From contig CAKKNE010000002.1 in assembly GCA_918797485.1 (NCBI GenBank), forward strand, positions 3,066,501 through 3,130,500: a DNA stretch of 64,000 bases, in the 5' to 3' direction. Position numbers and translations under genes: made by a program. Of the stretch, positions 1,011 to 62,669 are shown piece after piece. How positions within the stretch are numbered: the stretch's first letter is position 1; every line of letters starts with the position of its first letter. The DNA is from Pelagomonas calceolata. Taxonomy: Eukaryota > Sar > Pelagophyceae > Pelagomonadales > Pelagomonadaceae. The notes below the pieces were generated by a model, which was not told the DNA's origin, ran no database searches, and saw nothing but the letters and a program-made list of their open reading frames with translations.

Positions 1011-1033
1011 TCTAGTGGTCTTACGCCGCTAGC
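1011..1033. promoter_or_regulatory. CTAG dyad (promoter motif candidate)
   Basis: A 23-bp copy of the recurrent dyad: TCTAG, a 13-bp spacer containing GTCTTAC, then CTAGC. It sits between divergent start codons at 837 (minus) and 1280 (plus). The role is inferred only from its repeated upstream position in this window. Confidence 0.55.
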
Positions 1034-1279
1034 TGCGTTTTTCGGCCGACGAGTTAATCCGTCCAATGCACGGTCCGGAAGGCTACATCAGGGCGACCCG
1101 CGGGTCCAGCAACCAGCACGTGAGGAGCCGAAGACGCCAGGAGACTTGGAATTGGAGAGGGAGCCGCCGCTGCGCCGCGTTTGTGGCCCGGCGCACCATC
1201 TCATTCCGCCGAGGGCTGCCTCCCCCTCAAATTGGAACCAGTGCGTTGCCAGTAAACGGAGACACGCACCCAAACTCCA

Positions 1280-3571
1280 ATGGATGCATTCGCTACGCTG
1301 GGGCCCGCCGAGGACCGGCCGCTCCCGCCGCCGCCGGTTGCGGGCGGGATGACGATGCAGCCGGCGGTGCCCGACCCGATGTCCGGGGCGAGCTTGTTCC
1401 CGCCGGCGACGGCGATGCCGGCGCCGACCGCACCCGAGCCACCGATGCCGGCGATGCCGGCGATGCCGGCCGCACCACAGTCCGGCGCGAGCCTCTTCCC
1501 CGCGGCGCCGCCCATGCCGACGTCGGCGCCGGTGCCGCCCGTGCCGCCGATCCCCGCGGCGGCGGCGGCCGGCACCGGAGGGGCCGCGCCGGCGCTGCTC
1601 AGCCCCACGGGCACGGCCATTTTCGGCGCCGTCGCCGAGCCGACGGCGCCCCAGTCGAACACGCCCGAGTTCAACAACGTCCAGCTCTGGAAGGACGGCT
1701 TTCACCAGGGCATGGCTCCGGACACGGCGCTGCCGCCGGGCGCGCGCGCGATGCCGGGCATGGCCGCGATGCCGCCCGCGACGCCCGCGGCGAATCCGTC
1801 GCCGAAGCTCATGGTCACGCCGACGCCGCTCAAGGTGGCGAACATGCTCGCGGCGCCGCTGGACCTCGCGCAACCGCCGGCGCCCGCGCCCGCGCAGCCC
1901 CAGGCGCCGAACTCGTTCTCGGCCCCCTTGGTGCCCCAAGGGCCGCCGGCGCCGGGAATCGACTCGTTCGCGGCGCCGGCGGCCGCGTTCGCGGCGCCGC
2001 CGCCGCCGCCGCGCGCGCCCGAGGTCGCGCCGGACGCCTTCCCGCCGCGCGCGCCCGTGGCGGCGGTGACGGGCGGCGCGGCCCTCTTCGGCGCGCCGCC
2101 GCCGACGGGCGCGGCGCTCTTCGGCGCGGCGTCGCCGAGCGACGCCGACAGCGACGCGGCGAGCGCCTTCGGCACGCCGGCCAAGCCCGTCGTGCTCGGC
2201 GGCGGCGGGTCGCCGTCGCCGCCGCCGACGTCGCGCAGCGGCTCGTTCTCGCCGCGCGGCGCGGGCAAGCACTTCCGCGAGTTCACGCCGCCGCCGCCGG
2301 CCCCCGAGGAGGCCTTCGGCGCGCCGCCGCCCGTCTCCGTCGGGGGGTCCGCTGCCGCCGCTGCGGCTGCTGCGTTCTCCGCGCCCGCGGCGCCGGCAGA
2401 TCCATTTTCTGCGCCGCCACCTGTCAACCAGGTGCCGAGCGACCCGTTCGGCGCGCCCGCGGCGCCGAGCAATTCATTTTCCGCGCCCGCGGCGCCGGCC
2501 GATCCCTTTTCTGCGCCGCCGTCACCTGTCAACCAGGCGCCAAGCGACCCTTTCGGCGCCCCGGCGGCGCCGGCAGATCCCTTTTCTGCGCCGCCGCCAC
2601 CTGTCAACCAGGCGCCTGCCTGGGGCTTCGAGGCGCGCCTGCGAGAAATCTTTGATAGAGTAGATACGAGTGGCGACGGCGATATCTCCGTCGTGGAAGC
2701 AGTCAAAGCGCTGAGGAAGGACGATGACTTCGCCAAGGTGCTCGGCTTCGACAAAGCTACCAGAGTAAGACAGGAGGACGGTACCAGAGATCAGTTGATC
2801 CTCGCGCTCGGCGCGCTTGATGCCGACGGCGACAAGAAGGTGAGCTGGGCGGAATTTAGGAGGGTCGCCACTTGTTATATTCCGTTCGGCGCGCCGGCAG
2901 CGACCGATCCGTTTTCAGCGCCGTCGGCCCCTGTCGGCCAGCCGAGCGACCCCTTCGGCGCGCCGCAGCCGCCACCGCGCGCACCACAACCGCCACAGGA
3001 CGCCTTCGCGGCGCCAGCGCCGCCGAGCGCCGACCCGTTCCACGCGGCGCCGGCGGCGCCCGATGTGTATCATGGTGGCTGGGGCGGTCAGCAGCCGCCT
3101 CCGTCGAACGTTTTCGCGGCGACGGAGCCGGTTTTTGAGTCGCCCGCACCGAAGGCCGCCGCGCCGCGGAACACGGCGTCGCCCGACTTGTTCGGCGACT
3201 CCGTCGCGCCGTCGACCGTGTCGAGTGGCGAGAAGAAGAAGGCCGCGAAGAACTTTGATTTCGGCCTGCACTCGGAACTTGTGTCGTTAGATCTGAACGC
3301 GAACGGTGCCCCACCAAAAGCCAAGAGCGCCATCAAACAAAAACCTGCCGTCGCCATGAACAAGATGGCGACGACGGAACGGCGGTCGTCGATGCTGAGC
3401 ACGCAGCCCATGGGCGCGCCCCCGGCGATGGGCATGGGCGCGCCCCAGGCGATGGGCATGCCGCAGCCGATGGGCATCCAGGCCCACCCCGCGTTCGCGC
3501 GCTACACAGCCGAACAACAACAGTGGTTGCTGGCTCAAACCCCACAAGTCCAGGCACAGTACCTCCAGTAA
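1280..3571 (+). CDS. EF-hand protein with DPF/DLF repeats, endocytic scaffold-like
   Basis: A 763-residue single-exon ORF starting at ATG 1280. About residues 1-450 are Ala/Pro-rich with repeats such as SDPFGAPAAPADPFSAPP; DPF is the classic AP-2 alpha-ear binding motif of Eps15 and epsin-type proteins. An EF-hand pair follows at about residues 453-532, with loops DTSGDGDISVVE and DADGDKKVSWAE, so calcium binding is likely. More DPF repeats follow (residues 535-590), then a SPDLFGDS motif and a conserved-looking basic tail (NFDFGLHSELVSLDL, RRSSMLSTQ) ending in an MGAP/MGMP tract and a QQQWLLAQ helix. I infer a clathrin-adaptor-associated scaffold. There is no EH, ENTH or ANTH fold visible, so this is not a named family member. 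Its stop is 5 bp from the stop of the convergent armadillo gene. Confidence 0.75.
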   Translation: MDAFATLGPAEDRPLPPPPVAGGMTMQPAVPDPMSGASLFPPATAMPAPTAPEPPMPAMPAMPAAPQSGASLFPAAPPMPTSAPVPPVPPIPAAAAAGTGGAAPALLSPTGTAIFGAVAEPTAPQSNTPEFNNVQLWKDGFHQGMAPDTALPPGARAMPGMAAMPPATPAANPSPKLMVTPTPLKVANMLAAPLDLAQPPAPAPAQPQAPNSFSAPLVPQGPPAPGIDSFAAPAAAFAAPPPPPRAPEVAPDAFPPRAPVAAVTGGAALFGAPPPTGAALFGAASPSDADSDAASAFGTPAKPVVLGGGGSPSPPPTSRSGSFSPRGAGKHFREFTPPPPAPEEAFGAPPPVSVGGSAAAAAAAAFSAPAAPADPFSAPPPVNQVPSDPFGAPAAPSNSFSAPAAPADPFSAPPSPVNQAPSDPFGAPAAPADPFSAPPPPVNQAPAWGFEARLREIFDRVDTSGDGDISVVEAVKALRKDDDFAKVLGFDKATRVRQEDGTRDQLILALGALDADGDKKVSWAEFRRVATCYIPFGAPAATDPFSAPSAPVGQPSDPFGAPQPPPRAPQPPQDAFAAPAPPSADPFHAAPAAPDVYHGGWGGQQPPPSNVFAATEPVFESPAPKAAAPRNTASPDLFGDSVAPSTVSSGEKKKAAKNFDFGLHSELVSLDLNANGAPPKAKSAIKQKPAVAMNKMATTERRSSMLSTQPMGAPPAMGMGAPQAMGMPQPMGIQAHPAFARYTAEQQQWLLAQTPQVQAQYLQ

Positions 3572-3576
3572 ATTAC

Positions 3577-4392
3577 TTATTTCTTATCGCTCGCCTCGAG
3601 GTTTTCTAAAGCTCTTTGTGCTTGCGCGGCCGCCCTGGTACCTCTCGACGCCGCGATGTCTCGGAGTAGTGGAATGGCCCCTAAATCTCTCAACCGCGCC
3701 TTGTTGTCCGTATTCACCGAAAGATTCCTCAAAGCGCGAGCGCATTGCGATCGCAGATCGACAGAGGGTGCTTTAGCACCATCTAGAATAACTTCCAGCC
3801 CACCGACGCGCGCGATCTCTTGTTCATTTTTATCATTGACCGCCAGATTCGCCAACGCCGCCACGGCCTCGACGCGCACGCCAACATGGGGCGACCGCGC
3901 CAGCTCCACCAACGGGATGATGCCCTTTTCTTCTGCGACCCTTTCCTTATTCCGCACGTTGACGCTAATGTTCGCTAGAGCTTTCGCAGCTTGTCTTTGT
4001 ACGTGGATTTCGCCCTGGCACGCGAGTAATGCTATTAACACAGGTATAGCACCATCCTCGGCGAGCTTTATCTGGTTCTGCGCATCCACTGACAGATTAG
4101 CTAAAGCGTGCGCGGCGAGCCGTCGGACCTCCGCATCTCTTGAACGCGTGAGTGGCACCAACAACCTCAGACCGCCCAAGTTCACTATTTGTACTTGCCT
4201 TTCTGCTTTCACGGCGGCATTCGCGAGCTTCTCAGCAACTTCTCTCTGGAGAGTCGGGTCCGCGCTCTCGGCATACGCGATCAATCGTGTTAAATGTAAC
4301 TCGAGCTGCCTTATATATTCACCATCATCTTCATCATCCGACGCGTCCTTCTCCTCGTAGCGGCGGCGGCGGCTGCTGCGGGAGTTGCCCAT
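3577..4392 (-). CDS. Armadillo-repeat protein, Vac8/ARMC-like
   Basis: A 271-residue ORF from ATG 4392. Nearly the whole protein from about residue 35 is armadillo repeats with the usual signatures: GGLRLLVPLTRS, RRLAAHALANLSVD, GAIPVLIALLA, RQAAKALANISVN, GIIPLVELARS and RVEAVAALANLAVN. About five to six repeats are visible. The N-terminus MGNSRSSRRRR fits an N-myristoylation site (Gly2, Ser6) with an adjacent basic patch, so membrane tethering as in Vac8-type proteins is plausible. An acidic stretch (KDASDDEDDGE) separates this from the repeats. The fold call is firm; the specific function is unknown. The start is supported by the MGNSRSS signature. Confidence 0.85.
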   Translation of the reverse strand: MGNSRSSRRRRYEEKDASDDEDDGEYIRQLELHLTRLIAYAESADPTLQREVAEKLANAAVKAERQVQIVNLGGLRLLVPLTRSRDAEVRRLAAHALANLSVDAQNQIKLAEDGAIPVLIALLACQGEIHVQRQAAKALANISVNVRNKERVAEEKGIIPLVELARSPHVGVRVEAVAALANLAVNDKNEQEIARVGGLEVILDGAKAPSVDLRSQCARALRNLSVNTDNKARLRDLGAIPLLRDIAASRGTRAAAQAQRALENLEASDKK

Positions 4393-4542
4393 TGTTCAAA
4401 TCGCTCAGTGGGTGTTGTTGCCGGCCGGAGGGCTGCGTTTTTTTGCTGCCCCGCGCGTCGGCCTTGCGAATGAGCTGGACTGCCTTCCTACTTGGGCGTC
4501 TGCAGGCTCGATTGGCTTCGAAACGAGCCGCTGATGTGTAAA

Positions 4543-4566
4543 GCTAGTATGTGAGTGAGCGCTAGC
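4543..4566. promoter_or_regulatory. CTAG dyad (promoter motif candidate)
   Basis: A 24-bp copy: GCTAG, a 14-bp spacer starting TATGTGAG, then CTAGC. It lies 150 bp upstream of the armadillo start (4392, minus) and just before the DUF1294/HAD-SDR pair (plus). Confidence 0.55.
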
Positions 4567-4655
4567 TCGCGGTCGCGCGCAATTTTGTATTTGCGCGGCT
4601 TTCAGCTGGTACTGCTGCTATTTGACATCGCGGTGAGACGGCTTAGGAGTCGTGC

Positions 4656-4943
4656 TTGCCAGCGGCAACCAGAGAGCGCCAGATTTTAAATACGGCGCTG
4701 CGCACATATCCCACGCTGCTGCTCGTGCTGCTCGGCGCCCTCGACAAGGCCGCCGCAAAGCTCGGGCTGCGCAGAGTACCGGAGCAAACGCTCTGCGGCC
4801 TCGCCGTTGCGAGCGGTACCACCGGAGCGCTAACAGGTGCGCTCGCGCTCGTCCTGCTGCAGCACAAGACGCGCAAGCAGAGCTTCCAGCTCAAGTATCT
4901 CATCGCGACCGGGCTGGCCCTCGCTATCGATAACCTATTATGA
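4656..4943 (+). CDS. DUF1294-family small membrane protein, no ATG start
   Basis: An open frame of about 95 codons matching the bacterial-type DUF1294 family pattern: a hydrophobic start, GALDKAAAKLG, RVPEQTLCGLA, a GTTGALTGALAL helix, then the signature QHKTRKQSFQLKY and a second hydrophobic helix. Two to three membrane segments are expected. There is no in-frame ATG: an in-frame TAG lies just upstream, and TTG at 4656 is the first near-cognate codon. In fact no ATG occurs in any plus frame from 4567 to 4939. The frame ends at a TGA overlapping the ATG of the next gene (ATGA at 4940-4943). It is either translated from a non-AUG codon on a dicistronic mRNA, or it is the last exon of a spliced gene with a 5' exon I cannot place. 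The start is uncertain. Confidence 0.6.
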   Translation: MPAATRERQILNTALRTYPTLLLVLLGALDKAAAKLGLRRVPEQTLCGLAVASGTTGALTGALALVLLQHKTRKQSFQLKYLIATGLALAIDNLL

Positions 4944-6427
4944 CGAGCGTGCCGGACAAGTGCCACATCGGCACGCGGCGCGTCGAAACCCCGGCGGCGG
5001 CCCTCTTCGACGTCGACGGCACGCTCGTGGACAGCATGGGCCGCTTCTTCCCGTCGTGGAACGAGGCCGGCGCCAACTACGGGCTCTCGATGACGGAGGC
5101 GGAGTTCTACGGCTACGCGGGCATGCCTCTGCCGGACATCGTCGAGGACTTGTACCGCCGGTGCAAAGGTACTGAACCGCCGGACGGCTTCGTCGCGGAA
5201 TTCCTCGCTTCCAAAAAAGCGAAGCACGCGGCGCGGGAGGCGATCGACGGCCCGCCGCCGGTGATCGCCTGCGTGGCGGCGATCGCGCGGGCCTGGGCGG
5301 CCCGGGGCGTGCCCGTCGTCTGCGCGACGTCGGGCCTGCGGGACCACGTCGAGCCCCACCTCGCGGCGGCGGGATTGAGTGATCTGTTCCCGTCGGACAA
5401 AATTGTTTGTGCGGCCGATCTACCGAAGGGACGCGGCAAGCCACTGCCGGACATCTTTTTGAGGGCGGCCGCGGTCGCGGGCGTCGACGCTTCTCATTGC
5501 GTCGCTTACGAGGACGCCGAGGCGGGCCTCAAAAGCGCGTGGGCCGCCGGGTGCGCCGTGGTAGACGTGACCGGGCTCCCGGACTATCCGCTGCCGGAGG
5601 GCCTCCGCGCGGCCAAGGCGGCGCAAGTCCAACGGCGCGACTGGCTGCCTCCATCGAGAATATTGGTCACCGGCGGCACGCGCGGCATCGGCAGGGCTGT
5701 GGTAGAGGCGCTCGCGCGGCGCGAGGGCGTCGTCGTGTACCTGGGGTGCCGCGACCTTGCCGCCGGACAAGCGGTGGCGCCGCACGACGGTGTCGTGCCC
5801 GTTCTCTTGGACGTCACGGACCCCGCGTCGATCAAGACGGCCGTCGAGACCGTGCGGGCCGCGGGTGGCCTCGACGCCCTCGTGAACAACGCTGGTGTGA
5901 TGGATGAAAGTGATATGGAGAGGACGCTCGAGGTGAACCTCGACGGCGTCGCCGCGGTGACCACCGCCTTCGCGCCGCTCCTACGCACCGGTGGCCGCGT
6001 GATCAACGTGTCGTCGGGCGCCGGGCTCCGCGCGGCGGCGGCGTTGGCGCCGGCCGATCGCGAAGCTCTCGAGGCTGATTCCGTCGCCGCGATTCGCGCC
6101 ACAGCACAACGGCTCGCCACAACGGCCGACATCCCGGTCTACGGCATCTCCAAGGCCGCGGTCAACGCGTACACTAAATTAGCGGCGCGCACGTACCCGG
6201 CGCTGCGCGTGAACGCGTGCTCGCCGGGCTTCTGTCGCACCGAGATCGCCGGCCCGAACGCGGACTACTCCGAGCGCGAGCCCAAGGCCCCGGCGCTCGG
6301 CGCGGACGTGATCACGAAGCTGCTCTTCGACGACGCGCTCTCCCAGAACACGGGCAAGTTCTTCAAGGAGTGCTCGAAGCCCGGGACGGCTGTTGAAGAT
6401 GCGGTCTCCCGCGAGGAGCCCTGGTAA
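4940..6427 (+). CDS. HAD phosphatase - short-chain dehydrogenase fusion
   Basis: A 495-residue ORF from ATG 4940 (A at -3). Residues 20-225 are a HAD-superfamily hydrolase of the beta-phosphoglucomutase-like type: DVDGT at 24-28, the second motif CATSG at 128-132, a Lys in KGRGKP near 163-168, and AYEDAEAG at 189-196 as the acidic motif. Residues 240-480 are a short-chain dehydrogenase/reductase: cofactor-binding TGGTRGIG at 244-251, NNAG at 316-319, INVSS at 355-359 and catalytic YGISK (Tyr401, Lys405). Both active sites look complete, so this is probably bifunctional: one domain dephosphorylates a small phosphate ester and the other oxidises or reduces a carbonyl or alcohol with NAD(P). A shared substrate, such as a sugar or polyol, is inference. 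The linker is about 15 residues. The gene follows and overlaps the DUF1294 frame. Confidence 0.88.
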   Translation: MTSVPDKCHIGTRRVETPAAALFDVDGTLVDSMGRFFPSWNEAGANYGLSMTEAEFYGYAGMPLPDIVEDLYRRCKGTEPPDGFVAEFLASKKAKHAAREAIDGPPPVIACVAAIARAWAARGVPVVCATSGLRDHVEPHLAAAGLSDLFPSDKIVCAADLPKGRGKPLPDIFLRAAAVAGVDASHCVAYEDAEAGLKSAWAAGCAVVDVTGLPDYPLPEGLRAAKAAQVQRRDWLPPSRILVTGGTRGIGRAVVEALARREGVVVYLGCRDLAAGQAVAPHDGVVPVLLDVTDPASIKTAVETVRAAGGLDALVNNAGVMDESDMERTLEVNLDGVAAVTTAFAPLLRTGGRVINVSSGAGLRAAAALAPADREALEADSVAAIRATAQRLATTADIPVYGISKAAVNAYTKLAARTYPALRVNACSPGFCRTEIAGPNADYSEREPKAPALGADVITKLLFDDALSQNTGKFFKECSKPGTAVEDAVSREEPW

Positions 6428-6499
6428 GATACTTCTGGGTCCTCGTCCACGTCATCGCCGCTATCCCAGACGACCGTGAGGAACCTTGTAATAATATAC

Positions 6500-8765: not shown

Positions 8766-8784
8766 AAAAAAAAACAAAAAAAAA
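8766..8784 (-). terminator. Pol III oligo-T terminator of tRNA-Gly
   Basis: On the minus strand, two bases after the discriminator, there is a run of nine T, one G, then nine more T (plus-strand A runs at 8776-8784 and 8766-8774). Runs of four or more T terminate RNA polymerase III, so this is a strong double terminator. Confidence 0.85.
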
Positions 8785-8785
8785 G

Positions 8786-9821: not shown

Positions 9822-9847
9822 AAGGGGGACAGAGCCAATGCGGAGGT

Positions 9848-9870
9848 GCTAGTGTGTCAATGGAGCTAGA
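9848..9870. promoter_or_regulatory. CTAG dyad (promoter motif candidate)
   Basis: A 23-bp copy: GCTAG, TGTGTCAATGGAG, CTAGA. It lies only 57 bp upstream of the ankyrin gene start at 9927. Confidence 0.5.
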
Positions 9871-9926
9871 TAACTTCCAGCGCTGCTCGACAAGGCTGCT
9901 AACGAAGACATTCGTGTCGGGGCAGC

Positions 9927-11197: not shown

Positions 11198-11203
11198 CAA
11201 TGT

Positions 11204-11870: not shown

Positions 11871-11905
11871 GCGGTCTCGCGTTCGTCGCGCGAGAGACGG
11901 TAGCA

Positions 11906-11930
11906 GCTAGTGTACTATAAAGACACTAGC
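11906..11930. promoter_or_regulatory. CTAG dyad (promoter motif candidate)
   Basis: A 25-bp copy: GCTAG, TGTACTATAAAGACA, CTAGC, with an ACTATAAA box inside. It lies between divergent starts at 11733 (minus) and 12078 (plus). Confidence 0.55.
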
Positions 11931-12077
11931 AAGCACTGCACGGAGCCGCGGCGCGGCATGCACGCGCGCTGAGCAACGCTGCGAAGCTGGACGCCTGCAT
12001 ATAGCTCCTACACGCAGCGCGCAGCTGCTCAGCCAAGCGAGCCAGCGCCGCCCGCGGGCGGCCCACAAACAAGCACC

Positions 12078-15424: not shown

Positions 15425-15480
15425 AGTCGATGTTACGGTGCTAGGACTAGTTGAGTCGATGTTACGGTGCTAGGACTAGT
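15425..15480 (+). repeat. Two tandem copies of a 27-bp repeat
   Basis: Units at 15425-15451 and 15454-15480 are identical over 27 bp and end in GGTGCTAGGACTAGT. The core TAGGACTAGT recurs at about 15518-15527, and TACGGTTAGGACTAGTGG occurs at 42043-42060. Both sites lie just upstream of a CTAG dyad. Confidence 0.75.
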
Positions 15481-15549
15481 GGGCGGAGCCCCTGGGGGGG
15501 AGACACCGCGCGTCGCCGATAGGACTAGTCCAGAGTGGCGCGCGAAACT

Positions 15550-15573
15550 GCTAGTGTCTTACAAGACGCTAGC
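15550..15573. promoter_or_regulatory. CTAG dyad (promoter motif candidate)
   Basis: A near-consensus 24-bp copy: GCTAGTGTCTTACA followed by AGACGCTAGC. It lies 166 bp upstream of the start at 15739. Confidence 0.6.
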
Positions 15574-15738
15574 CTTCATCTCCGCCGTGAAAAAGGACAA
15601 ACGGCACGTAGACGGCAAAGATCACGGTTCAGAATTGCATGTGCAGCAGTTCTGAGCGTGCGCCACTGCTGCGCGAATCCTGTGGCCGCAGGAAGGCGGC
15701 GCGGAGCAGCACTGAGTAGGCACAGCAGACCCCTGCCG

Positions 15739-18909: not shown

Positions 18910-19550
18910 GATGCGGTGGCCGTGGCGCGGCGACGGACGCAGGCAGGGCGGCGACGGCTTTCTGGCCTGTGAGGCAGACGCCGTCCGAGACCGCGCCCCG
19001 TCCGCGGCGCGAGCCCACGTCACCACGCGCGGCGCGCCTCAGAGCCGCGGGCCGCCACCGCCGCCTCGGCGGTCGCGCTGAAGCATCGCTCTCGCTGGCG
19101 CGGCGCCGGCGTCCTGAGGACGGCTGGTGCTTGCTCAGCTGAGTGAGATGCGGCGCCGCGCCGAGAGAGCGCGCGCGGCGCAGCGCGACAGCGCGCGCGC
19201 GCGGTCGTTAGATCGATCAGAAGGAGATCCGGTCGATTTCAACGAGTGGTCTCGTGTGGGCGGCCCCGAGCGATCGGAGATGCTCTCTGTCGAATTAAAA
19301 AATGGCAGTTGATAGTGTGAAAGACACTCTAGGATTACGGCGCTGGATGCTCACGCTTGCGTGGGTTCTGGCGCTGGTTTTTGAGCCAAATTTGGTGCGC
19401 CTGGCGCTACTTACGAGGCACGGGAAGATGTGGACTTGATCCGCGCGATTTTAGGTTCGAAGACTCTCTAGGGTTGGGAAGGCAGCCCTTACCCCAAAAC
19501 CACAAGCTGCCCCGCCGTCAGCGGGGGATAGCGATGGCCGCCCGACGACG
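18910..19550. other. Intergenic stretch, CG-repeat rich
   Basis: This is the 5' side of the minus gene at 18909. It contains CGCGCGCG-rich patches (19160-19205). A segment at 19447-19505 faintly resembles a tRNA on the minus strand (see rejected items). No gene is supported. Confidence 0.35.
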
Positions 19551-25059: not shown

Positions 25060-25489
25060 GGCGTTATGCTGTTTTCGCTGTCTGCCAGTCGGTAAGCGCC
25101 GCGCCTTCGTGTGGGGGCCAAGGGCCTCAGTTATGGGTGTACCGCAGCCTCAGATCAGCACTGGCTTACGCCGCGGCCGCGGATATCCGCGATGAATAGG
25201 GCGGCCGCAAAACAGTGAGAGGCTTTGTGCGGGTGGCTCTCCGAAAAGAAAAGCTCCCAAAGACGCAGCCCCGCCTGCCCCAGCAATCATCCACACCTCT
25301 CGCGACGACTCGAGCCACAGGAACAGACAGAGCACTAGCAAATCGAACAGGTCGAGACGTTTCCCGCGCGGCTGCCCAAGAGCTGCCCCAAGCACCGCGC
25401 CAAGCACCGCGCATTGTGAGGTAGTTGCCCCGACGCAGCGCCCGACACCCGACGCAACGCCCGCGCGACGCGCCGCACGAAACGGAACC
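25060..25489. other. Divergent intergenic stretch without a dyad
   Basis: Between starts at 25059 (minus) and 25490 (plus). GC-rich, with repeats of AAGCACCGCGC near 25390-25415. I see no CTAG dyad here, so that motif is not universal. Confidence 0.4.
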
Positions 25490-28388: not shown

Positions 28389-28464
28389 GTTTCGACGCGT
28401 TTGGGCAGCCCTGGCTGCCCTGGACAATTCCCACGGCTGCGGCTGCCCGAAGCCCAAGGTCGAA

Positions 28465-28487
28465 ACTAGTATGTCTCACCGCTAGGT
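28465..28487. promoter_or_regulatory. CTAG dyad (promoter motif candidate)
   Basis: A 23-bp copy: ACTAG, TATGTCTCACCG, CTAGGT. It lies between divergent starts at 28388 (minus, 77 bp away) and 28662 (plus, 175 bp away). Confidence 0.5.
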
Positions 28488-28661
28488 GGGCTCACTTCGT
28501 TTTTACGTGCGCGGGTGATTCAAGCCATAGAATATTAGTTTTGAGGTCACCGATATGAGGCCTTGCGCTGACTCGCGCAAAACTCCTGCGGCCCGTCGCT
28601 CATAGCGACAATTTTCAGTGGCTCTGTAAAACTCTTATTCGCGAGATTCGCGAGACGATAA

Positions 28662-30608: not shown

Positions 30609-30983
30609 ATTGCTGCCCAAGCACGGCGCGTCGACGCGCCTGCCGTCGTGGGTCCGCGCGGGGGACCACAGCGGTGGTGCTCAGGGCTGCCCCGGTCCCA
30701 ATTGCGGGCTGCCCTCCGCGCACGGCCGGCCTTTGCCAAACCCTCGGCGTTCAGCTGGGTGAAAGGTGCAGACCCCCCTACCCGCCCGCCGGGAGCGCTC
30801 GCGGGGCCCGTACTCCGTAGCGCACCCGGCGAGACGTGCCTCGACGCCTAAAGCCCGGGTCCGACGCCTCCCTGCCACGAGCCACGACACAACGCTGGGG
30901 CTCTCACAACAGCCCGTCGCGCAGCCCCGCAAGTCCACGGGGCAGCCCGAAACCGACGTTGCGCTGCGCGACACGCGACAAGG
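30609..30983. other. Divergent intergenic stretch without a dyad
   Basis: Between starts at 30608 (minus) and 30984 (plus). GC-rich, no CTAG dyad. CAACGCTGGGGC and GACCCCCCTACCCGCC patches only. Confidence 0.4.
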
Positions 30984-31502: not shown

Positions 31503-31590
31503 CGTGTCCTATCTCGCGCGGCCTTTTCGAAGGGGGTGTTGTTACCTAAGTATGGGCTTGCCGCGATGTTTCCTCCGAATAGATCACTGC

Positions 31591-31614
31591 GCTAGTGTGT
31601 GTCGACACGCTAGG
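31591..31614. promoter_or_regulatory. CTAG dyad (promoter motif candidate)
   Basis: A 24-bp copy with extra self-complementarity: GCTAGTGTGTGTCGACACGC then TAGG. It lies 205 bp upstream of the start at 31819. Confidence 0.55.
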
Positions 31615-31818
31615 CTCCTGGTTCGGGCGTGGTGCGTATAACTCGGCGTAGCTGTCGTTACACTTGCCATTGGAATTGCACAATCAGAGCATTACCTGTC
31701 GCGCACCAGCAAGACAATAAATTTTTGAACCAATTGGCTTGACAACAGCTCTCAGAGCCTGTGTCAGCCTGCACCTTTGAGACCAGCTGAGTGACGCCTC
31801 TTGCCCGCTCTACTCGTG

Positions 31819-34557: not shown

Positions 34558-34742
34558 GCCTGCTTTGCTTATACTCCCAAATTGACTGCTCAGGTGTGCA
34601 GTGGCACTGCCAGTGTCGATTCGTACGCAGCTGTGCGACCTTTTGCCCTTTTAGGTTTCAGGGCTGCAAAACGCTTCCTTTGCCCGCTTATTTTGGCCTT
34701 GTAGCGGTAGTAACGCACAAAAATGCCAAAGCATGCCAAGGA

Positions 34743-34766
34743 GCTAGCGACATGTAACACACTAGC
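34743..34766. promoter_or_regulatory. CTAG dyad (promoter motif candidate)
   Basis: A 24-bp copy, consensus-like on the minus strand: GCTAGTGTGTTACATGTCGC then TAGC. It is almost exactly midway between divergent starts at 34557 (minus) and 34957 (plus). Confidence 0.6.
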
Positions 34767-34956
34767 AAGCACGGGACGGCCTCCGCCGAGGCGGCTTACG
34801 CCAGGCGTGGTGCAGCAGGGCTCCTGGGAGCGAGGCGTGGCGCATCTCAACTATTGGGAGCGATCCGTCGTGCCGCCTCGCAGCCGCCGGACACGTCTGC
34901 AAGCTATAGGCTGTGAACAGCCAGTTTAGCAGCCAACAACAATAGCAGCCAAAACG

Positions 34957-40931: not shown

Positions 40932-40953
40932 TCTAGAGCGCGAGTGCGCTAGC
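40932..40953. promoter_or_regulatory. CTAG dyad (promoter motif candidate)
   Basis: A 22-bp copy: TCTAG, AGCGCGAGTGCG, CTAGC. It lies between divergent starts at 40740 (minus) and 41307 (plus). The spacer is GC-rich and lacks the TTAC core, so this copy is weaker. Confidence 0.45.
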
Positions 40954-42060: not shown

Positions 42061-42077
42061 ACGCTGCGAGCCGGTGA

Positions 42078-42099
42078 GCTAGCGTGTAAGACCACTAGC
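42078..42099. promoter_or_regulatory. CTAG dyad (promoter motif candidate)
   Basis: A 22-bp copy; on the minus strand GCTAGTGGTCTTACACGCTA then GC. It lies 213 bp upstream of the SMG1 start. Confidence 0.6.
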
Positions 42100-42311
42100 A
42101 AAAGGACAAAAAGCAAGCAAGCGAGGGCTGGCTTTGAGCTAGCGCCTCAGCGCCTGTGGCTCGTGCAAAAGCATGGCGTTCCACACGTCGCACGACAGCA
42201 GCCATGACGCACCAGCAAACAAACGACGAGGCATGAGACAAGAGCATGGGTGAGCTGCTGCAGTAGCTGCGGAGACAGGCACTGCTGCCAAGCACTCACA
42301 CGACAGCGGCG

Positions 42312-53016: not shown

Positions 53017-53069
53017 CGACTGCCACTGCGAGAAGAGTCACTTAGTAATGCGCAGTGCCTCCGCGAAGC

Positions 53070-53092
53070 GCTAGAGCGAGAGACACACTAGG
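53070..53092. promoter_or_regulatory. CTAG dyad (first of a pair)
   Basis: A 23-bp copy: GCTAG, AGCGAGAGACACA, CTAGG. It lies 54 bp from the minus start at 53016. Confidence 0.5.
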
Positions 53093-53094
53093 AT

Positions 53095-53114
53095 GCTAGT
53101 ATGTCTCGCGTAGC
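53095..53114. promoter_or_regulatory. CTAG dyad, shortened (second of a pair)
   Basis: GCTAGTATGTCTCGCGTAGC, 20 bp; the right half has lost the C of CTAGC. It begins 2 bp after the first dyad, in the divergent region between 53016 and the SRPK start at 53300. Confidence 0.45.
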
Positions 53115-53299
53115 TCATTTGGAAATCGAGCCAGCCGCTCGCTCGCGTCGCAGCGGCCTAGGAGGCAAACCAGCGTAGTGGGAACAACTAAGGACACAGC
53201 GAGGACGGTCAAGCCGCTGGTCCGAGCCCGACGCGCCGCCGGAGCCACCGCTGCCGCCAAATAGAAGAAAGCCAGACTCAGCGCGCGCCACGATATACG

Positions 53300-56007: not shown

Positions 56008-56062
56008 TCTGGATTGGGGCTTTTAGTTTTTACTCCCTTGTGGTATGCTTACTCCCGAGCCC

Positions 56063-56506: not shown

Positions 56507-57442
56507 GCTTCGCTCTCCGTCACTGGCGGTGCTCTCCCAGCGGGGGCCACGGGTTTCAGTGGCGTGAATTGAGGGCGCTCATACGCGGCCCCTTGAGAAG
56601 TTATATGCGCAAAAACCGGCGTACGGCCAGAGCATCCGCCGGACCCCAACATACCAGCTTTTTGGGCTGGAAAAGGGCGACGCCGGCGCGCAGCACAGTG
56701 TGAAAGGGCTGCCCTCTCCCCGACGGCTTTGGCTCCTTCCGCGGCGCGAGACGGTCTACCCGAGCGCGGGACCAAGCGTGGGGACCTACCGAACGATGTC
56801 GAACGGCCGGAGCGAACAATGAGGCCCGAACGGCTGCGGCGTCCGACGGCGCATTTCGGGGTGCGCCGATGGGCCGGCGCGATGTCATCGAATCGCCGCG
56901 GTGAGCCCACTGACGTGCGTGGGCCATCGCATGCGATCCTTATAGATGCTCCGTGGCCACAGTTTTGGTTCCATCGGCTCGGAATGCACAATTTAGGGTC
57001 CACAAAGTCGGCCTCGACGCCGCGTTCGGCCCACTGAATGTCGGCGTTGTGGAGGTTTTGAGCGGTCCGAACGGTTCGTACCCACCCATGGGTCAGCATA
57101 GAGGCCCCCAGCGGCTGGACTACGCGCGGAGGCAATTTTTGTGAATTTTCTAGTATGTAATTTGTGCCTAACATCTGTCAAACCTCATGATTTTTTCTCA
57201 AACTTTGTGTGAATTAAGATGAGGTCTATATACGCCCCCTGACCGGTTTTTGCGCATAAAATCTTCGACGCGACGCCGCTAGAGCCGGAGCAAAAACCCG
57301 TGGCCCCCCATCTCTCCCAGCCAAATCTCTGCAACCAAGTTGTAATCAGTCGCAAAACGGCACTGTACGCGCAACAAGCTCCCTCAGTCCGTCGGTTAAG
57401 CTGAGGCTAGGCTAGGCTAGCCGGATAGAAACATTAACATGT
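56507..57442. other. Gene-free stretch between genes
   Basis: Several open frames occur on both strands but none has recognisable protein character. It contains the inverted-repeat-bounded segment 56604-57258 and a short (GGCTA)n tract at about 57405-57420. Confidence 0.45.
56604..57258. mobile_element. Putative non-autonomous element bounded by a 16-bp inverted repeat
   Basis: TATGCGCAAAAACCGG at 56604-56619 is the exact inverse complement of CCGGTTTTTGCGCATA at 57243-57258, about 655 bp apart. Similar TACGCCCCCTGA-type sequence lies just outside the left arm and just inside the right arm. No transposase ORF and no clear target-site duplication are seen. Confidence 0.4.
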
Positions 57443-59224
57443 CTAACGCCTATACGGCGAGAACCCCGCGAACGACGAGGACGGCATCACATACGTCTCG
57501 TCCTCAGCGATCTCGACGGCTCCGCGGACCTGCTCCGCGTCGAAGACGCCGACGCCCCAGAAACCGGTCCCGCCGCGCCGGACATTTTTATGGAAGAGGT
57601 CGTGGAAGAAGCGGTGCGGGAGGCCGAGCTGGGCCTCGAGCTGGAGGCCGCCGCTGGACGGCCCCATCGAGCCCCGGATCACCAGGAAAAAGTTCGAGTC
57701 GTCGCAGTCGATGCCCAGGACGTCTTGCATCCTCTGATGGACGTCGCGCCGCGCCACGACGACGTAGCAGAGCAACAGGACGTGTTCTACCTCGGGCCGC
57801 GCATCGCCCTCGAACGTGTTCGGCGGCTGATCCGTCCTATCATAAAAGTTCGGCGGCGCCAGCGCCGTGCCCTGCGCCGGGCCCGGCTGCGGGAAGCGCT
57901 GGGCCAGCGCGGTGCACTTCGCGAGGAGCGCCGGGGTCAGCACGGGTTCGAGCAGGCTGCCGGCCGCCGGCGCGCCGCCGACGCTCGGCGGCGTCGGCGG
58001 GCGCCGCGCGCCCGGCGACGAAGCGCACCGTGCGCACGCCCGCGCGAGCGCCGCGCACGCGTCTTGAGCGCTCGCATTCGCGGGCAGGCCCTCCGGGCGC
58101 TCGGCGGCGATCGCGCGCGTGTCCCGGAACTCGCCGTGCCGGAAGCGCTGGTAGAGGTCGTCGCCGCAGTAGCCGGCGGCCGCGAGCGCGTAGGGCAGCC
58201 AGCTCAGACAGAGCAGGGGCATGCCGTCGTCGAACGGCACCACGAGCCCCAAATAGAGCAAGAACACCACCCACTCCTTGTAACAGGGCAACCTGCGTTG
58301 AGACACCGATGAACGTGGAGAAACGTCAACTCTCACGAGAATAGATCGAATTGTAGGCTCCTCGAGTCGACGAAACGCCGGCACCTACCAAGGGTAGGGC
58401 TTGATCAGCCCTATCGACCACCGTCTCCCTTCGTCGGGTGGAGGCGGCGGCGGCGGCGGCGGCGGCTCCGGCGGCGGCACCGGCGGCTGCGTCCGCGGGT
58501 CCGGCGACGAGCCCGGCGACGCCGGCGACGCTTGCAGCAGCAGCCGCGGCTGCTCCGGCAGCAACATCTGCCAATGCAGCCCGTCGAAGTGTCGCAGCTG
58601 CTCCTGTGGCAGGACGCGGCAGAGCAACTCGTTCCCAGGTGGCAGCGGGTCCGGCGGCGCCGCCTTCACGAGGTCCCGCAGCTGCGAATACCTCCGGAGC
58701 AGCGCGGCGGGGCCATAGTCCCCTTCCTGCCACGGCCGGATCGTGAAGCCGCGCTCGCGCGCGCGATTGAGGTCGATGACGAGGCCGTGGGGCCAGCCCT
58801 GGCGGCACACGTAGGCCGTGTTGGCCCGGCCGACCATGATCGAGACGCTTCTTTCGTAGCGCGAGTCGAAGTCTAAGGCGCTCGCGTCGAAGTTGTGCGC
58901 CGGCGGCTCCAGCGCAAACGTGCAGCCGCCGAGGTAGCAGCCCACGAGCGCCTCCGCGTAGCAGCCCGTGGTGATGGCCGCCGCGAACGCGCCCGGCACG
59001 TGGCCGCGCATGACGTAGGCGACTCGCTGCATAACCGATGACGTGTATGCATTCCCTGGCAGGGAATGCTCGAGCTCGTGCAGCGGATGCTTCACGAGCT
59101 CCTCCAGTTTTTGCTTGCGCCGGCCCAGGTCCAAGTCCTGCAAATACGTTGATAGCGCTTCTACTTCTGACGCAACTTCGGCCGGCAATGACGATGCATC
59201 ACTGTCGCTGGTGTTATTATCCAT
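57443..59224 (-). CDS. Unknown protein with Pro-tract and membrane segment (two exons)
   Basis: ATG 59224 (MDNNTSDSDASS); the frame is open 5' without an ATG. Exons 58389-59224 and 57443-58292 join in frame (561 residues). The 96-nt intron removes the TAG in GGTAGGT and splices PYPW to LPCYKEW. The N-terminal part has YLQDLDLGRRKQKLEELVKH and SGVMQR-like sequence (SSVMQRVAYVMRGHVPGAFA), then a poly-Pro run at about residue 260 encoded by a GCC/CGG-type repeat. The second exon begins with hydrophobic segments (EWVVFLLYLGLVVPF, LLCLSWLPYALAAAG), then a Pro/Ala linker and PEVEHVLLLCYVVVARRDVHQ, FFHDLFHKNVRRGGTGFWGV. I do not recognise a family. The last part may be enzymatic or structural. Confidence 0.65.
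58293..58388 (-). other. Intron (96 nt), GTAGGT to AACGCAG
   Basis: On the minus strand the donor is GTAGGT at 58388 and the acceptor TCAACGCAG ends at 58293. Removal restores a single frame across two ORFs. There is no introner terminal repeat or 14-mer, so this looks like an ordinary short intron. Confidence 0.7.
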
Positions 59225-59891
59225 TTTTACAGCGTTTTTGGACCTCGGCGACGTGCGCAAACGCTGTCGACGTAGAAACCCGCGAGCTCAGAGGCTCGGG
59301 GCTCAATCGCTAGTGATTTAGCTTTAGCTTTGTCTTAGACTCTACAGCCTTAGTGCTCGTCAGGTTGCTCCAAACAGCGCCACCTCGTCGGCGTTTCGCC
59401 CACAGCAACGACGCACGACACGCTTTTCGTTTGGTTAGGGCGATGCACTGGCGGCCGGCGCGAGGATGTACGCACGGTAGAGCAAAGACTCGGCGTTGCT
59501 CGGCTCGGCGCTGCAGAAAACTAGTAGGAAAAACCACGCACCTTGATGAAATGTAACGTTGCCAGAGTCCATTGAAGAAGAGAAGTCCGTGGGGCGAAAT
59601 ATTGGTTTCGACGCAGAGCGGCGACGGCGTGGCCTCGACAGACACGGCGCGCCGATGCCCTAGCCGCTGCTCTTTTCAGGCGTGCTTGCGTCGCGAGATC
59701 ACGCCGTAGACCTCGCGTGCTACATTCTACCGCACCACAATAGCCCTTGGCCGCAATTTTAGATAATTCGCCGCTTGTGACGCTGCACGTGCAGCAATCA
59801 CGTAGGCGCACAAAAATCCATGGTAGCAAACGGGTTTTCGCCGATTTTTCAATCCGCTCCTCCTCGAAGCCCCAAGTAAAGCTAAAAACAC
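59225..59891. other. Intergenic stretch upstream of the gene at 59224
   Basis: A partial CTAG motif (GCTAGTGATTTAGCTTTAGC, 59311-59330) lies 87 bp from the minus start at 59224. Open minus frames at 59310-59645 and 59521-60261 have no protein character I can support; the latter overlaps DPM1 out of frame. Confidence 0.4.
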
Positions 59892-60677
59892 TTAGAATAC
59901 CAATGACGCGACGTACGCAACCAGAACCACCAAGACAAAAAGCACCGCGAGGACCTCGTACCGCAGCGCGAACCAGTAGAGCCCCGCGAGCTGCTGGAGG
60001 TACTCGACATTCTGTTTCGCGCTGAGCTTCGACTCGCCCGCCGTCCGCTCGCGAAACGTGATGGGCACGTCTTCCACCGAAGTGCACCGGCAGCGGACCA
60101 TCACCTCCAGGCCGACCTTGAAGCCCAGCGGCCGTGGCTCGCCCTTCGCCAGTACTTTTTTGGAAGTGCAGAAGAAGCCGCTCATGGGGTCCGTCGACGT
60201 ACACAAAGGCCGCGCGAGGAGCGTCGCGCCCGCGGAAATGATGACTCTCACCACATTCCATTCGAAGCCGACGCCGCCGCCGCCCACATGTCGAGAGCCG
60301 ACGCTGAAGTCCGCCCGTCCTGCGAGGACGGGCGCCGCGACGCTCGGCACGGACTCGGGCTCGTGCTGGAGGTCGGCGTCCATACAGAGCACAGTATCAT
60401 ATTTCGCGCGCGCGAAGCCCAGCAGTACGGCCGAGGAGAGGCCCCGGCCTTGGCTGCGCGCGCGCGTCTCGAGGCGCACGTCAAAACCCTCCTTCCGCAG
60501 CTGTTGGACGATGCTTTGCGACGCGCCGGAGCCGCGCGACTCGTCGTCGGCGAAGAGGAGGTCGCAGTCTAGACCCGCGGCGCGGGCTGCTTTGAACAGC
60601 CGTTCCGTCAGCGGTCGTAGGTTGTCCGTCTCGTCGTAGGTCGGGACGACGACGGAGAGCTGCTTTTGCGGCGCCAT
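59892..60677 (-). CDS. DPM1: Dolichol-phosphate mannosyltransferase, yeast-type with C-terminal anchor
   Basis: ATG 60677 (MAPQKQLSVVVPTYDETDNL); 261 residues. It is a GT2-family GT-A fold: nucleotide-binding VVPTYDETDNLRPL, DDESRGSG at 44-51, metal-binding DAD at 100-102 in CMDADLQHEPES, the family block SVGSRHVGGGGVGFEWNVVR, then LCTSTDPMSGFFCTSKKVL and VPITFRERTAGESKLS. A hydrophobic helix (YEVLAVLFVLVVLVAYVASLVF) ends the protein, as in the single-subunit yeast type, so DPM2/3-type anchors may not be needed. It makes Dol-P-Man at the ER for N-glycans, GPI anchors and O-mannosylation. Confidence 0.93.
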   Translation of the reverse strand: MAPQKQLSVVVPTYDETDNLRPLTERLFKAARAAGLDCDLLFADDESRGSGASQSIVQQLRKEGFDVRLETRARSQGRGLSSAVLLGFARAKYDTVLCMDADLQHEPESVPSVAAPVLAGRADFSVGSRHVGGGGVGFEWNVVRVIISAGATLLARPLCTSTDPMSGFFCTSKKVLAKGEPRPLGFKVGLEVMVRCRCTSVEDVPITFRERTAGESKLSAKQNVEYLQQLAGLYWFALRYEVLAVLFVLVVLVAYVASLVF

Positions 60678-60932
60678 TTTTGTGCTTTGCAGCGGTTCGC
60701 TGCTTTGTTTTCGAGGTTTATCACGCCGCGCGTATTTTTGTGGGTCAACGACGTGCGAAATTGGCTGCAGGGTAGGCCCAAGCTCGATACGCGTTGATTT
60801 TTGCGGCCCGTAGCGCGGTTGAATGCCGTTTTTCGAGGCTGTTGGCTGCGCGTGGATCGGTGAGTTGCTTCTGTGCGACAAGAGCTAAAGTGGCCAATGT
60901 GTAAGCGCGACACGCGTTTCCACAAAGCGCTT

Positions 60933-60956
60933 GCTAGTGTCTTACAGGCCGCTAGC
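60933..60956. promoter_or_regulatory. CTAG dyad (promoter motif candidate)
   Basis: A near-consensus 24-bp copy: GCTAGTGTCTTACA, GGCCGCTAGC. It lies between divergent starts at 60677 (minus) and 61097 (plus). Confidence 0.6.
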
Positions 60957-61096
60957 CTCACAGCCGTGCCTAAAAAGCCGCATTGCTCGCGTCACACTTC
61001 GCGCGCCAGCCAAATCGTTCGTTTGTGAGCCGTTACAGCTGTGGGACAACGATCCTGCCCACACTACATTGTAGCCCACAGCCGACAGCACTAAAG

Positions 61097-61624
61097 ATGT
61101 CCCAGATGGGCGGCGGCCTCCGCTGGCACGGCGTCTCGAAGACGGGCTCGACGGCGACGTCGCGCATCATGAACGCCGCGAAGGCCGAGCGCGAAAAGGC
61201 TAATAGATCTGCCCCAAAGGTCGGGTCCGCCTCCGTGACCGATGGGGACGACTGGCTCGCCGTCGCTGCCGCCGAGAGGGCAGCGAGGGAAAGGACGGGC
61301 GCCACGGGCAACGCCTTCGCCGACGGCGCGTCGCTGGTGCGGGAGGCGAAGCGCCAAGCGACGGAGGACGACGACGAGTTCGCGATTCCGGCCCAATCTA
61401 AAAAGGCGCGCGTCGACGACGAGGCCGACGGCCCGCCGCCGACAGAGAAACCAACGGAGAAGGTGGAGCTCTCGCGGGAAGCGAAGCGCGAGGTCGAGCT
61501 GTCGATCATGGAGCTGCGGGACGAGCTCGAGGAGGAAGGGTTGGACGAGGACGCGATCGACGCGCGGTGCGACGCTTTGCGAACGAAGCTCCTCGAGAAG
61601 GCCGCCGCCGACGCTGTAAAGTAG
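61097..61624 (+). CDS. cwf21-like domain protein, possible splicing factor
   Basis: ATG 61097; the frame is open 5' without an earlier ATG. 175 residues. It begins MSQMGGGLRWHGVSKTGSTA and TSRIMNAAKAEREKANRS, a glycine-rich then basic start. An acidic, Lys/Arg-mixed middle contains AIPAQSKKARVDDEAD, a possible nuclear signal. The last 45 residues (LSREAKREVELSIMELRDEL, EEEGLDEDAIDARCDALRTK) have the shape of the cwf21 helix pair found in Cwc21/SRRM2-type spliceosomal proteins. The domain assignment is by pattern only and could be a generic helical hairpin. Confidence 0.55.
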   Translation: MSQMGGGLRWHGVSKTGSTATSRIMNAAKAEREKANRSAPKVGSASVTDGDDWLAVAAAERAARERTGATGNAFADGASLVREAKRQATEDDDEFAIPAQSKKARVDDEADGPPPTEKPTEKVELSREAKREVELSIMELRDELEEEGLDEDAIDARCDALRTKLLEKAAADAVK

Positions 61625-61655
61625 AATAGATAGTTTTTTTTTTACCCTCCGCTGC

Positions 61656-62111
61656 CTACTTCTTGGTCGCCGCCATCGTCTTGCCGCGGCGCCCCGTGGA
61701 CTTCGTGTGCTGGCCGCGCACGCGGATGCACCAGTAGTGGCGCAGGCCCCGGTGGGCCCGGATCTTCTTGAGCCGCTCCAGGTCCGACCGCAGCGTCGTG
61801 TGGAGCGTGTTCGCGAACGCCTGCGAGTACTTGCCCGTCTTGTAGTCCTTCTGTCTATTTAAAAACCAGGTCGGGATCTTGAACTGCTTCGGGTTCTGGA
61901 TGATGGCCACGAGCTTCTCGACCTCGTCGGCCGTCAGCTCGCCGGCGCGCTTGTGCGCGTCGACCGCAGCTTTTTTGCACACCACGTTCGCGAAGCGGCG
62001 GCCGACGCCGGGGATCGCCGTGATGGCGTACATGACCTTGCGCCGCCCATCAATATTCGTGTTGAGCACGCGCAAAATGTGCTGGAAGTCGGGGCTGATG
62101 ACGAGCGACAT
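61656..62111 (-). CDS. RPS18: Cytosolic 40S ribosomal protein uS13 (RPS18)
   Basis: A 151-residue ORF from ATG 62111, full length for the eukaryotic family. The match is end to end: [32 protein letters not shown], the helix-hairpin-helix region, [53 protein letters not shown]. It is a component of the small-subunit head that contacts 5S-bearing large-subunit elements and the P-site tRNA. It is convergent with the cwf21-like gene, with 31 bp between stops. Confidence 0.97.
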
Positions 62112-62669
62112 CGTCTCGGGGGATTTAACCTGCGGGCGCCGCGAAAGTGAGCGTGCTGGCCGCGGTGGGAGCTATGCCGGTGTGTGTGGTGACCTCTGCG
62201 GCCGCGTCTAGCGGCGCGGTCGCCCCGCGGCGGCCTATCTCGGCCTTGCCACAATATGGCGATTCAGCGGCGCGTCCACGTCGCGCGGAGCTGTAAGCTG
62301 TCCGACACTGTAACGCACGGCTCCGAACAGCCCTACAACCACAGCTAGAGGCGACAGCGGCTTTGCGCTGCGCAGTAAATTACAATCGCTGTCCGCGACT
62401 TTGACAATCACCAAGTCTTTGCGCCTCTGCGAACACAGGCTGTGGGGACGTCCAGCGGCGACATGGGAGTGGCTCTGACACCCCAGGGCTTTTTGGAGCT
62501 ATCTTTTTTCGTTCTAGTACGTCTACGACACTAGTAAACATCGACGCCGGCCGCAAAGCGTAGGACACGTAGGCGGCCGACGGACGCCACGATTCATATC
62601 TGCAGCCGAGACGAGTCATATCTGCAGCCGCGCTATATATCTCAACAAAAAACAGCAAAGCTCTGTGTG
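62112..62669. other. Divergent intergenic stretch between RPS18 and the oxidosqualene cyclase
   Basis: No ORF supported. A duplicated ATATCTGCAGCCG segment occurs at about 62597-62630, and a pyrimidine-rich stretch lies near 62500. It contains the CTAG dyad at 62513. Confidence 0.45.
62513..62535. promoter_or_regulatory. CTAG dyad (promoter motif candidate)
   Basis: A 23-bp copy: TCTAG, TACGTCTACGACA, CTAGT. It lies 135 bp upstream of the cyclase start at 62670. Confidence 0.55.

Follow-up and report, generated by a model that had tools for sequence, protein, structure and literature searches.

A bipartite CTAG dyad upstream of genes in the pelagophyte Pelagomonas calceolata: a putative site marking the edge of promoters

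Introduction

The sites of the yeast general regulatory factors are promoter sites at nucleosome-free regions; nucleosomes are positioned on both sides of Reb1 irrespective of how its site is oriented, with poly(dA)/(dT) nearby (PMC8163841). The set of general regulatory factors changes between species (PMC2897762). Here we analyse a dyad, approximated by GCTAG-N(12-16)-CTAGC, that recurs upstream of genes in a 64-kb stretch of the Pelagomonas calceolata genome (G000:C2:3066501-3130500; "the window" below means this whole stretch) and in the rest of the assembly. A preliminary description, made from the letters of the window, had read the dyad as a mark of promoter regions.

A long composite promoter site found at many genes is also known from human, the M4/SBS motif of THAP11 and ZNF143 (PMC5006282). 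Among stramenopiles, the oomycete promoter elements INR, FPR and DPEP were found by over-representation, and INR plus FPR are well conserved in ≈ 13% of genes (PMC3599244). The site of a Phytophthora heat-shock factor (PITG_04701), TTCTAGAA, is itself a dyad with a CTAG in it (PMC11267843). Among the papers listed by a loosely matching literature search, in which subscription papers and preprints were thinly covered, none dealt with a host promoter motif in Pelagomonas or other pelagophytes. To our knowledge, the promoters of most marine algae have been little studied. The P. calceolata RCC100 genome (32.4 Mb; six nuclear contigs, plastid and mitochondrion) has 16,667 genes with 0.45 intron per gene, and the words "motif" and "promoter" are absent from the main text of the genome paper (PMC9481584); the motif described in PMC5917014 is viral.

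Results

The dyad is abundant and tied to one spacing class

An exact scan of the whole 32.4-Mb genome (32,445,274 bases in 8 contigs) for GCTAG-N(12-16)-CTAGC, as proposed in the preliminary description, gave 2,971 matches, compared to 252 for the reversed pattern. The corresponding numbers were 226 and 221 for spacers of 18-22, and 248 and 265 for spacers of 6-10. The excess is therefore tied to one spacing class. The dyad also occurs in reverse orientation, for example at C1:428766. The 24-mer GCTAGTGTCTTACAGGCCGCTAGC, allowing up to three mismatches, had at least 1,935 matches in the genome, and its reversed control had none among the matches listed. No meaning is read into the strand bias of this list, which omits known reverse-orientation sites such as the one at C1:428766. 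In the window, the strict pattern GCTAG-N(10-18)-CTAGC occurred six times (mean of shuffled sequences, 0.48; largest value, 3).

A two-part gapped profile of the dyad was trained on a sample of 264 kb consisting of the window and 20 stretches of 10 kb (numbered with L), which were taken at round-number positions from contigs C1-C6. Matches scoring at least 16 were counted as sites. The sample contained 64 sites, one per 4.1 kb, whereas five shuffles averaged 0.4 sites and the reversed sequence gave one. Extrapolation of the site density yields a genome total of about 7,900 dyads, and scaling of the exact count (26 in the sample and 2,971 genome-wide) yields about 7,300.

The site is bipartite and 24-28 bp long, with similar but unequal halves that read TTGCTAGTGTCTTACA and GAGCTAGCG inward. 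The profile consensus is TTGCTAGTGTCTTACA, a variable gap and then [AC]CGCTAGCTC; beyond ≈ 28 bp there is little information across the 64 sites. At the same place, the left half reads CTAGTG (T in 97%) and the right half CTAGCG (C in 86%) when both are read inward. Of 32 left halves reading CTAGT[AG][TC]CTTAC, 31 were followed by a correctly placed CTA(G). The centre CTAGT[AG][TC]CT was present in 41 of the 64 sites, and the remaining 23 included seven with CTAGTRTGTC and four with CTAGTRTGTTAC. The pitch from CTAG to CTAG was 18 in 29 sites, 17 in 16, 16 in 11, 14 in four, 19 in three and 15 in one. The regular half-site spacing given in the preliminary description is partly borne out. A dimeric binding factor is plausible, but the halves are unequal and the spacer flexes. 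We make no case for covariation of the arms: two of 12 symmetric positions had P < 0.05 (0.014 and 0.03, uncorrected).

A rare form with a spacer 6 bp longer than that of the main form, GCTAGTGTCTTACCTGTACAGGCCGCTAGC or one change from it, was seen at C1:1866233, C1:3808150 and C2:2050196. L014 holds a related left half that has no right CTAG.

Dyads lie in gaps that hold promoters

Genes were called with a coding-potential model, likewise trained on the 264 kb, which gave 171 coding segments that cover 69% of the bases. The gaps between them were classed as divergent, tandem or convergent. Since many of the short tandem gaps may be introns, the subset of gaps of at least 280 bp was also counted. 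Divergent gaps held 27 of the 64 sites, tandem gaps 28, convergent gaps one and coding sequence one; seven at the ends of stretches had no class. Hence 55 of the 57 classifiable sites were in divergent or tandem gaps. The single site in coding sequence was weak (score 17.6), and 44.2 would be expected there by base share. All of the 50 sites scoring at least 22 were in divergent or tandem gaps (44) or at stretch ends without class (6).

Counted by gap, the dyad was present in 26 of 41 divergent, 28 of 61 tandem and one of 40 convergent gaps (Fisher P 1.7 × 10−9 for the first two against the last). At a gap length of 280 bp or more, it was present in 26 of 41 divergent gaps and in 25 of 37 tandem ones, in total 51 of 78 promoter-bearing gaps. 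After correction for length, one of 56 gap sites was convergent, compared to 7.6 expected by share of gap bases (P 0.003). The preliminary description had found no full copy inside a coding region, which nearly holds (one of 64 sites). Its view that the dyad marks a subset of genes must be revised, as the dyad is present in the majority of the promoter-bearing gaps sampled.

The median distance from the dyad to the predicted coding segment was 210 bp for tandem gaps and 226 bp for divergent ones (range 59-462 bp). In divergent gaps the dyad lay near the middle, with a mean imbalance of 0.23 compared to 0.50 for random placement (26 of 27 sites; one very long gap was dropped). Relative to the gene, the orientation in tandem gaps was the same in 10 cases and opposite in 18, which is no significant bias (P 0.18).

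Dyads are present at matching places in a close relative

The pattern GCTAGTGYCTTACN{1,5}CGCTAG had seven matches in GTDB genomes and none in IMG/VR, where this single form of the pattern was searched. A virus origin of the dyad was set aside on that search. In six metagenome-assembled genomes (MAGs), the dyad pattern was rarer than its reversed control (1-15 versus 20-307).

Two of the GTDB matches, L021 and L023, are contigs of a Spirochaeta MAG (MED672). Both align to P. calceolata, L021 at 83% identity and L023 collinearly with C6 in blocks over 10 kb (83-94%). L040 and L042, on another MED672 contig, match C3 at 79 and 84%. L024, L030 and L035, from the marine proteobacterial MAG ERR599052_bin.23, match P. 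calceolata only in part, and L030 and L035 each do so at two separate places; the contigs carrying these three could be chimeras or have undergone rearrangement, and orthology is least certain for L035. On the basis of these alignments, we take the contigs, or parts of contigs, to stem from a close relative of P. calceolata and to have been mis-binned. The match L026, whose contig bears the title of a bacterial chromosome, is probably due to chance. The dyad of L022 lies near the end of a bacterial-looking contig (MgtE- and MurB-like genes by eye), which suggests a chimeric assembly join.

Eleven dyads of the relative, chosen because the relative has a dyad, were compared with the P. calceolata slices L044-L051 and L053-L055; L022, L025, L027 and two further sites on G001:C182 were left out. 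All 11 slices hold a dyad. Ten of them score at least 20 and L048 scores only 13.9. In L046, L050 and L051 the dyad is in place and 92-100% identical over the site. It has moved in L048 and, by ≈ 55 bp, in L049 (compared with L021), and L045 has it at the matching position in inverted orientation (identity 0.89 when inverted, compared to 0.68 in the original sense).

In part of the pairs, conserved sequence begins at the dyad. For three tandem pairs (L046, L047 and L054), identity over 80 bp is 81-86% on the side of the gene and 44-59% on the far side (mean for unrelated sequence, 56%); the dyad is where conservation sets in here, and it extends in the direction of the gene only. Identity in the divergent pairs L053 and L051 is 68-93% on either flank. 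The flanks of L050 and L055, whose left neighbour is undefined, are also conserved on both sides (71-95%). The remaining pairs are less clear: gene-side and far-side identities are 70 and 62% in the tandem pair L048 and 62 and 50% in L049, which is probably tandem, and the two flanks have 68 and 60% in L045 and ≈ 60% each in L044. A divergent promoter of the relative that has no dyad (L021:3862-4429) is well conserved, and its P. calceolata counterpart has no dyad either.

Signs of promoter function around the dyad

Of the 64 sites, 35 had a run of AAAA or TTTT within 30 bp; in the same promoters the rate at off-dyad positions was 23% (P 1 × 10−6), and in promoters without a dyad it was 41%. 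As to companion words at a fixed distance from the dyad, only the A/T runs were clear; weaker peaks were seen for GCTGG, GCAGC and TTCA.

Untranslated leaders avoid ATG. Over 82 gene arms, the gene side of the dyad had fewer sense ATG than CAT: 12 versus 23 at 14-39 bp (P 0.09), 9 versus 27 at 39-64 bp (P 0.004) and 67 versus 107 beyond 89 bp (P 0.003). These counts suggest transcript starts a short way past the dyad, on its gene side. On the far side the rates were reversed; in divergent gaps this side is the near side of the other gene, such that the counts are not independent. In tandem gaps alone, ATG also exceeded CAT on the far side, a weak hint of putative transcription in both directions at these dyads.

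With the dyads masked, no other promoter word of comparable strength was found; words like GGCAGCCC were enriched relative to coding sequence. This second word, GGGCAGCC/GGCAGCCC, is often present in several copies, at 25377, 28403-28448, 30692, 30714 and 30940 of the window and at L004:5704-5983 and L014:2403 and 2797. It occurs in both divergent promoters that had been named as lacking the dyad (25060-25489 and 30609-30983). With tandem gaps below 280 bp excluded, GGGCAGCC was found in eight of 27 dyad-less promoters, seven of 51 promoters with a dyad and none of 40 convergent gaps, and there were 12 copies in coding sequence.

Copies in the window

The copies in the window are as follows (coordinates, strand, description).

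1009..1035, +, dyad in a divergent gap; profile score 18.6
4541..4568, +, dyad in a divergent gap, with CTAGTATGTG centre; score 21.3; exact GCTAG..CTAGC
9846..9872, +, dyad in a tandem gap; score 22.4
11904..11932, -, dyad in a divergent gap, upstream of the Prp3 gene (Pfam PRP3); score 32.2
15548..15575, +, dyad in a tandem gap, with a dispersed-repeat copy (15460-15520) 28 bp away; score 36.3
19309..19335, -, weak dyad absent from the preliminary description; score 16.8, near the threshold
28463..28488, +, dyad in a tandem gap; score 22.6
31589..31616, +, dyad in a tandem gap; score 19.5
34741..34768, -, dyad in a divergent gap, Vps54 gene (Pfam Vps54) to the right; score 38.8
40932..40953, unstranded, doubtful member outside the profile; best score 6.4
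42076..42101, -, dyad in a tandem gap, upstream of an SMG1-like gene (Pfam SMG1 just below cut-off); score 23.9
53068..53094, -, dyad in a divergent gap; score 22.2
53093..53116 (end approximate), +, partial second copy beside the 53068 dyad; score 14.7
60931..60958, +, consensus dyad in a divergent gap, cwf21 gene (Pfam) to the right; score 39.3; exact 24-mer at G000:C2:3127433
62511..62537, +, dyad in a divergent gap; score 17.6

Thirteen of the 14 places listed in the preliminary description hold two CTAGs in the register given there, and the remaining one (53095) holds one, in agreement with its being called a shortened copy. Twelve of the 13 full copies reach the threshold of the profile, 40932 does not, and the strict pattern is present in six.

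The dyad at 62511 has a gene of the ribosomal S13/S18 family to its left and one of the squalene-hopene cyclase family to its right (Pfam). The window genes with a dyad are of mixed function (Prp3, Vps54, SMG1-like, ribosomal S13/S18 family, cwf21, squalene-hopene cyclase family and DAGAT acyltransferase). Four short calls (one with and three without a dyad) were left out of the 39 gene calls of the window; a Pfam match was then obtained for 14 of 19 genes with a dyad and eight of 16 without, and there was no meaningful difference in gene functions.

A dispersed repeat and a local duplication beside dyads

A dispersed repeat of ≈ 155 bp had eight matches in the 264 kb, five of which end 10-28 bp from a dyad. 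The following copies were identified by sequence match.

15460-15520 of the window, dispersed repeat
L004:2870-2978, dispersed repeat
L005:1920-2044, dispersed repeat
L005:3739-3824, dispersed repeat
L014:7738-7892, dispersed repeat
L023:299-455, dispersed repeat in the contig of the relative

The five copies near dyads are all in tandem gaps, on the side away from the downstream gene. Only 5.4% of intergenic positions are that close to a dyad (P 2 × 10−5, or 6 × 10−4 with the rate doubled). The other three matches are L009:113-173, near a weak dyad, L017:5988-6020, ≈ 280 bp from a dyad, and L003:10-52, at the end of a stretch. Similarity between the copies ends before the dyad. In the relative (L042) a repeat lies against the dyad, and by inspection P. 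calceolata (L054) keeps the dyad without the repeat. The repeat looks like an insertion next to dyads that is tolerated as long as it leaves the promoter uncut, and this is in line with the dyad as the promoter's outer limit.

L004 carries identical dyads at 1570-1595 and 2988-3013, 1.4 kb apart and with common flanks. Judged by these shared flanks, the pair is a local duplication of a promoter and an exception to the rule that dyads do not share flanks.

Discussion

The genome counts, the placement relative to genes and the presence in a sister species strongly support the view of the preliminary description that this is a promoter element with both dyad and polarity. On balance, we consider it probable that a sequence-specific DNA-binding factor recognises the dyad and thereby marks the upstream edge of most RNA polymerase II (Pol II) promoters. 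The factor, probably abundant, would bind the dyad without need of its polarity. Binding would open a nucleosome-free region, and initiation would start on one side or both. One copy in a divergent gap would then serve two genes and one in a tandem gap the downstream gene, while convergent gaps very seldom carry a copy. By analogy, the factor would act like the yeast general regulatory factors Reb1 and Abf1. A more far-reaching version appears to us possible but doubtful: a single pelagophyte-specific factor on a long, bipartite and polarity-blind site would organise ≈ 2/3 of the Pol II promoters in place of the TATA/Inr style, each occupied dyad would open chromatin and license initiation on both sides, also at tandem genes, and the repeat family would insert beside occupied dyads.

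Several points weigh against a promoter-edge site. About one-third of the promoter-bearing gaps of at least 280 bp have no dyad. The profile scans the very 264 kb used for its training, although the exact-pattern counts are independent of this, and the gene models are our own coding-potential calls with approximate gene starts. Convergent gaps are short, only 2.0 sites being expected there by base share of the whole sample, and at 280 bp and above the convergent contrast rests on one of seven gaps (Fisher P 0.013). The centring in divergent gaps is not significant (P 0.11) if at least 100 bp to each gene are assumed. In the comparison with the relative, seven of the 11 slices were located by an alignment that contains the dyad or has it at its edge, and only in L044, L045, L048 and L049 did the dyad lie outside that alignment and thus independent of it; of these, L048 is weak (13.9) and displaced, and the flanks of L044 and L049 are not conserved clearly above chance. 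Finally, the half-site CTAGT[AG][TC] has a higher density in convergent gaps (10 in 8.2 kb) than in promoters that carry no dyad (8) or in coding sequence (15 in 182 kb). Half-site words are hence not promoter-specific, and it is the full dyad that goes with promoters.

The preliminary description had also considered a core promoter element. In its strict form, such an element is contacted by the pre-initiation machinery and fixes the start at a set distance, and the shortage of ATG relative to CAT on the gene side from ≈ 40 bp on would permit starts close to the dyad. However, the distances to the gene are widely spread, orientation shows no significant bias toward the gene, one ortholog has the dyad inverted (L045) and another has it moved (L049/L021), and A/T runs apart there is no clear companion word at a fixed distance; we regard this explanation as unlikely. 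A long, specific site such as a dedicated factor would have, missing from about a third of the promoters, could instead belong to a pathway-specific regulator (cell cycle, light or nutrient) whose regulon is the set of genes carrying it. The presence of the dyad in 51 of 78 promoter-bearing gaps, at genes of mixed function, makes that distinctly unlikely. The frequent occurrence of the dyad in divergent gaps, where no 3' end needs stopping, and its rarity in convergent gaps render a boundary or roadblock terminator between neighbouring transcription units quite improbable, even though tandem-gap dyads lie between the upstream 3' end and the promoter and conserved sequence begins there in three pairs.

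Two further explanations were rejected. High copy number, dyad symmetry, the dispersed repeat adjoining several copies and the shared flanks in L004 would all fit a mobile element, its terminal repeat or its excision footprint. Such an origin is very improbable, as the 64 copies have no common sequence beyond ≈ 28 bp, dyads stand at matching places in two species, and the adjoining repeat stops before the dyad and is missing at one orthologous site that keeps it; the placement contradicts it as well. Neither homology beyond the repeat ends nor non-orthologous insertions, as expected of miniature inverted-repeat transposable elements and other mobile elements, were found for the dyad, the L004 duplication apart. 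It is likewise very improbable that the dyad acts as an RNA hairpin within 5' untranslated regions. By inspection, a 7-bp stem including one U-G pair could form between the arms on one strand, but the opposite strand has a C-A mismatch at that pair and no sense bias is seen, the non-pairing CTTAC is conserved, and position 4 matches between the halves in 9% of sites; the orientation counts and the conserved unpaired CTTAC decided the matter.

If the dyad is indeed a promoter-edge site, a conserved sign at the edge of most promoters would improve the annotation of gene starts. It would also offer a rational promoter for genetic tools, make a direct hunt for the protein possible, and add a site of a promoter-defining factor outside animals, fungi and plants.

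How does the dyad compare with known systems? Heat-shock-factor sites consist of inverted nGAAn/nTTCn units, which by inspection the dyad profile does not match. The Phytophthora heat-shock-factor site has 8 bp and one CTAG, whereas the dyad has two CTAGs 14-19 bp apart with flanks TTG/TG and GAG/CG. The oomycete elements INR, FPR and DPEP (YCAYTYY, MWTTTNC and SAASMMS) are short, oriented and located at or near the start site, unlike the dyad (PMC3599244), and inspection found no match between their consensus words and the dyad profile. The human M4/SBS motif, ACTAYRNNNCCCR, with 520 copies in promoter regions, differs from the dyad in sequence and is not a dyad (PMC5006282).

The closest analogue in mode of action would be the yeast general regulatory factors, Reb1 and Abf1 in particular. 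As with Reb1, Abf1 and Rap1, the dyad recurs in a large share of promoters. It is associated with A/T runs, as sites of the Reb1/Abf1 type are, at a frequency above that of off-dyad positions, with dyad-less promoters in between at 41%. The 10 same and 18 opposite orientations in tandem gaps and the inverted ortholog would fit a putative independence of orientation like that of Reb1 and Abf1. In contrast to the sites of Reb1, Abf1 and Rap1, the dyad has an unrelated sequence, is bipartite with a flexible spacer over 24-28 bp, and is present in ≈ 2/3 of the promoter-bearing gaps sampled.

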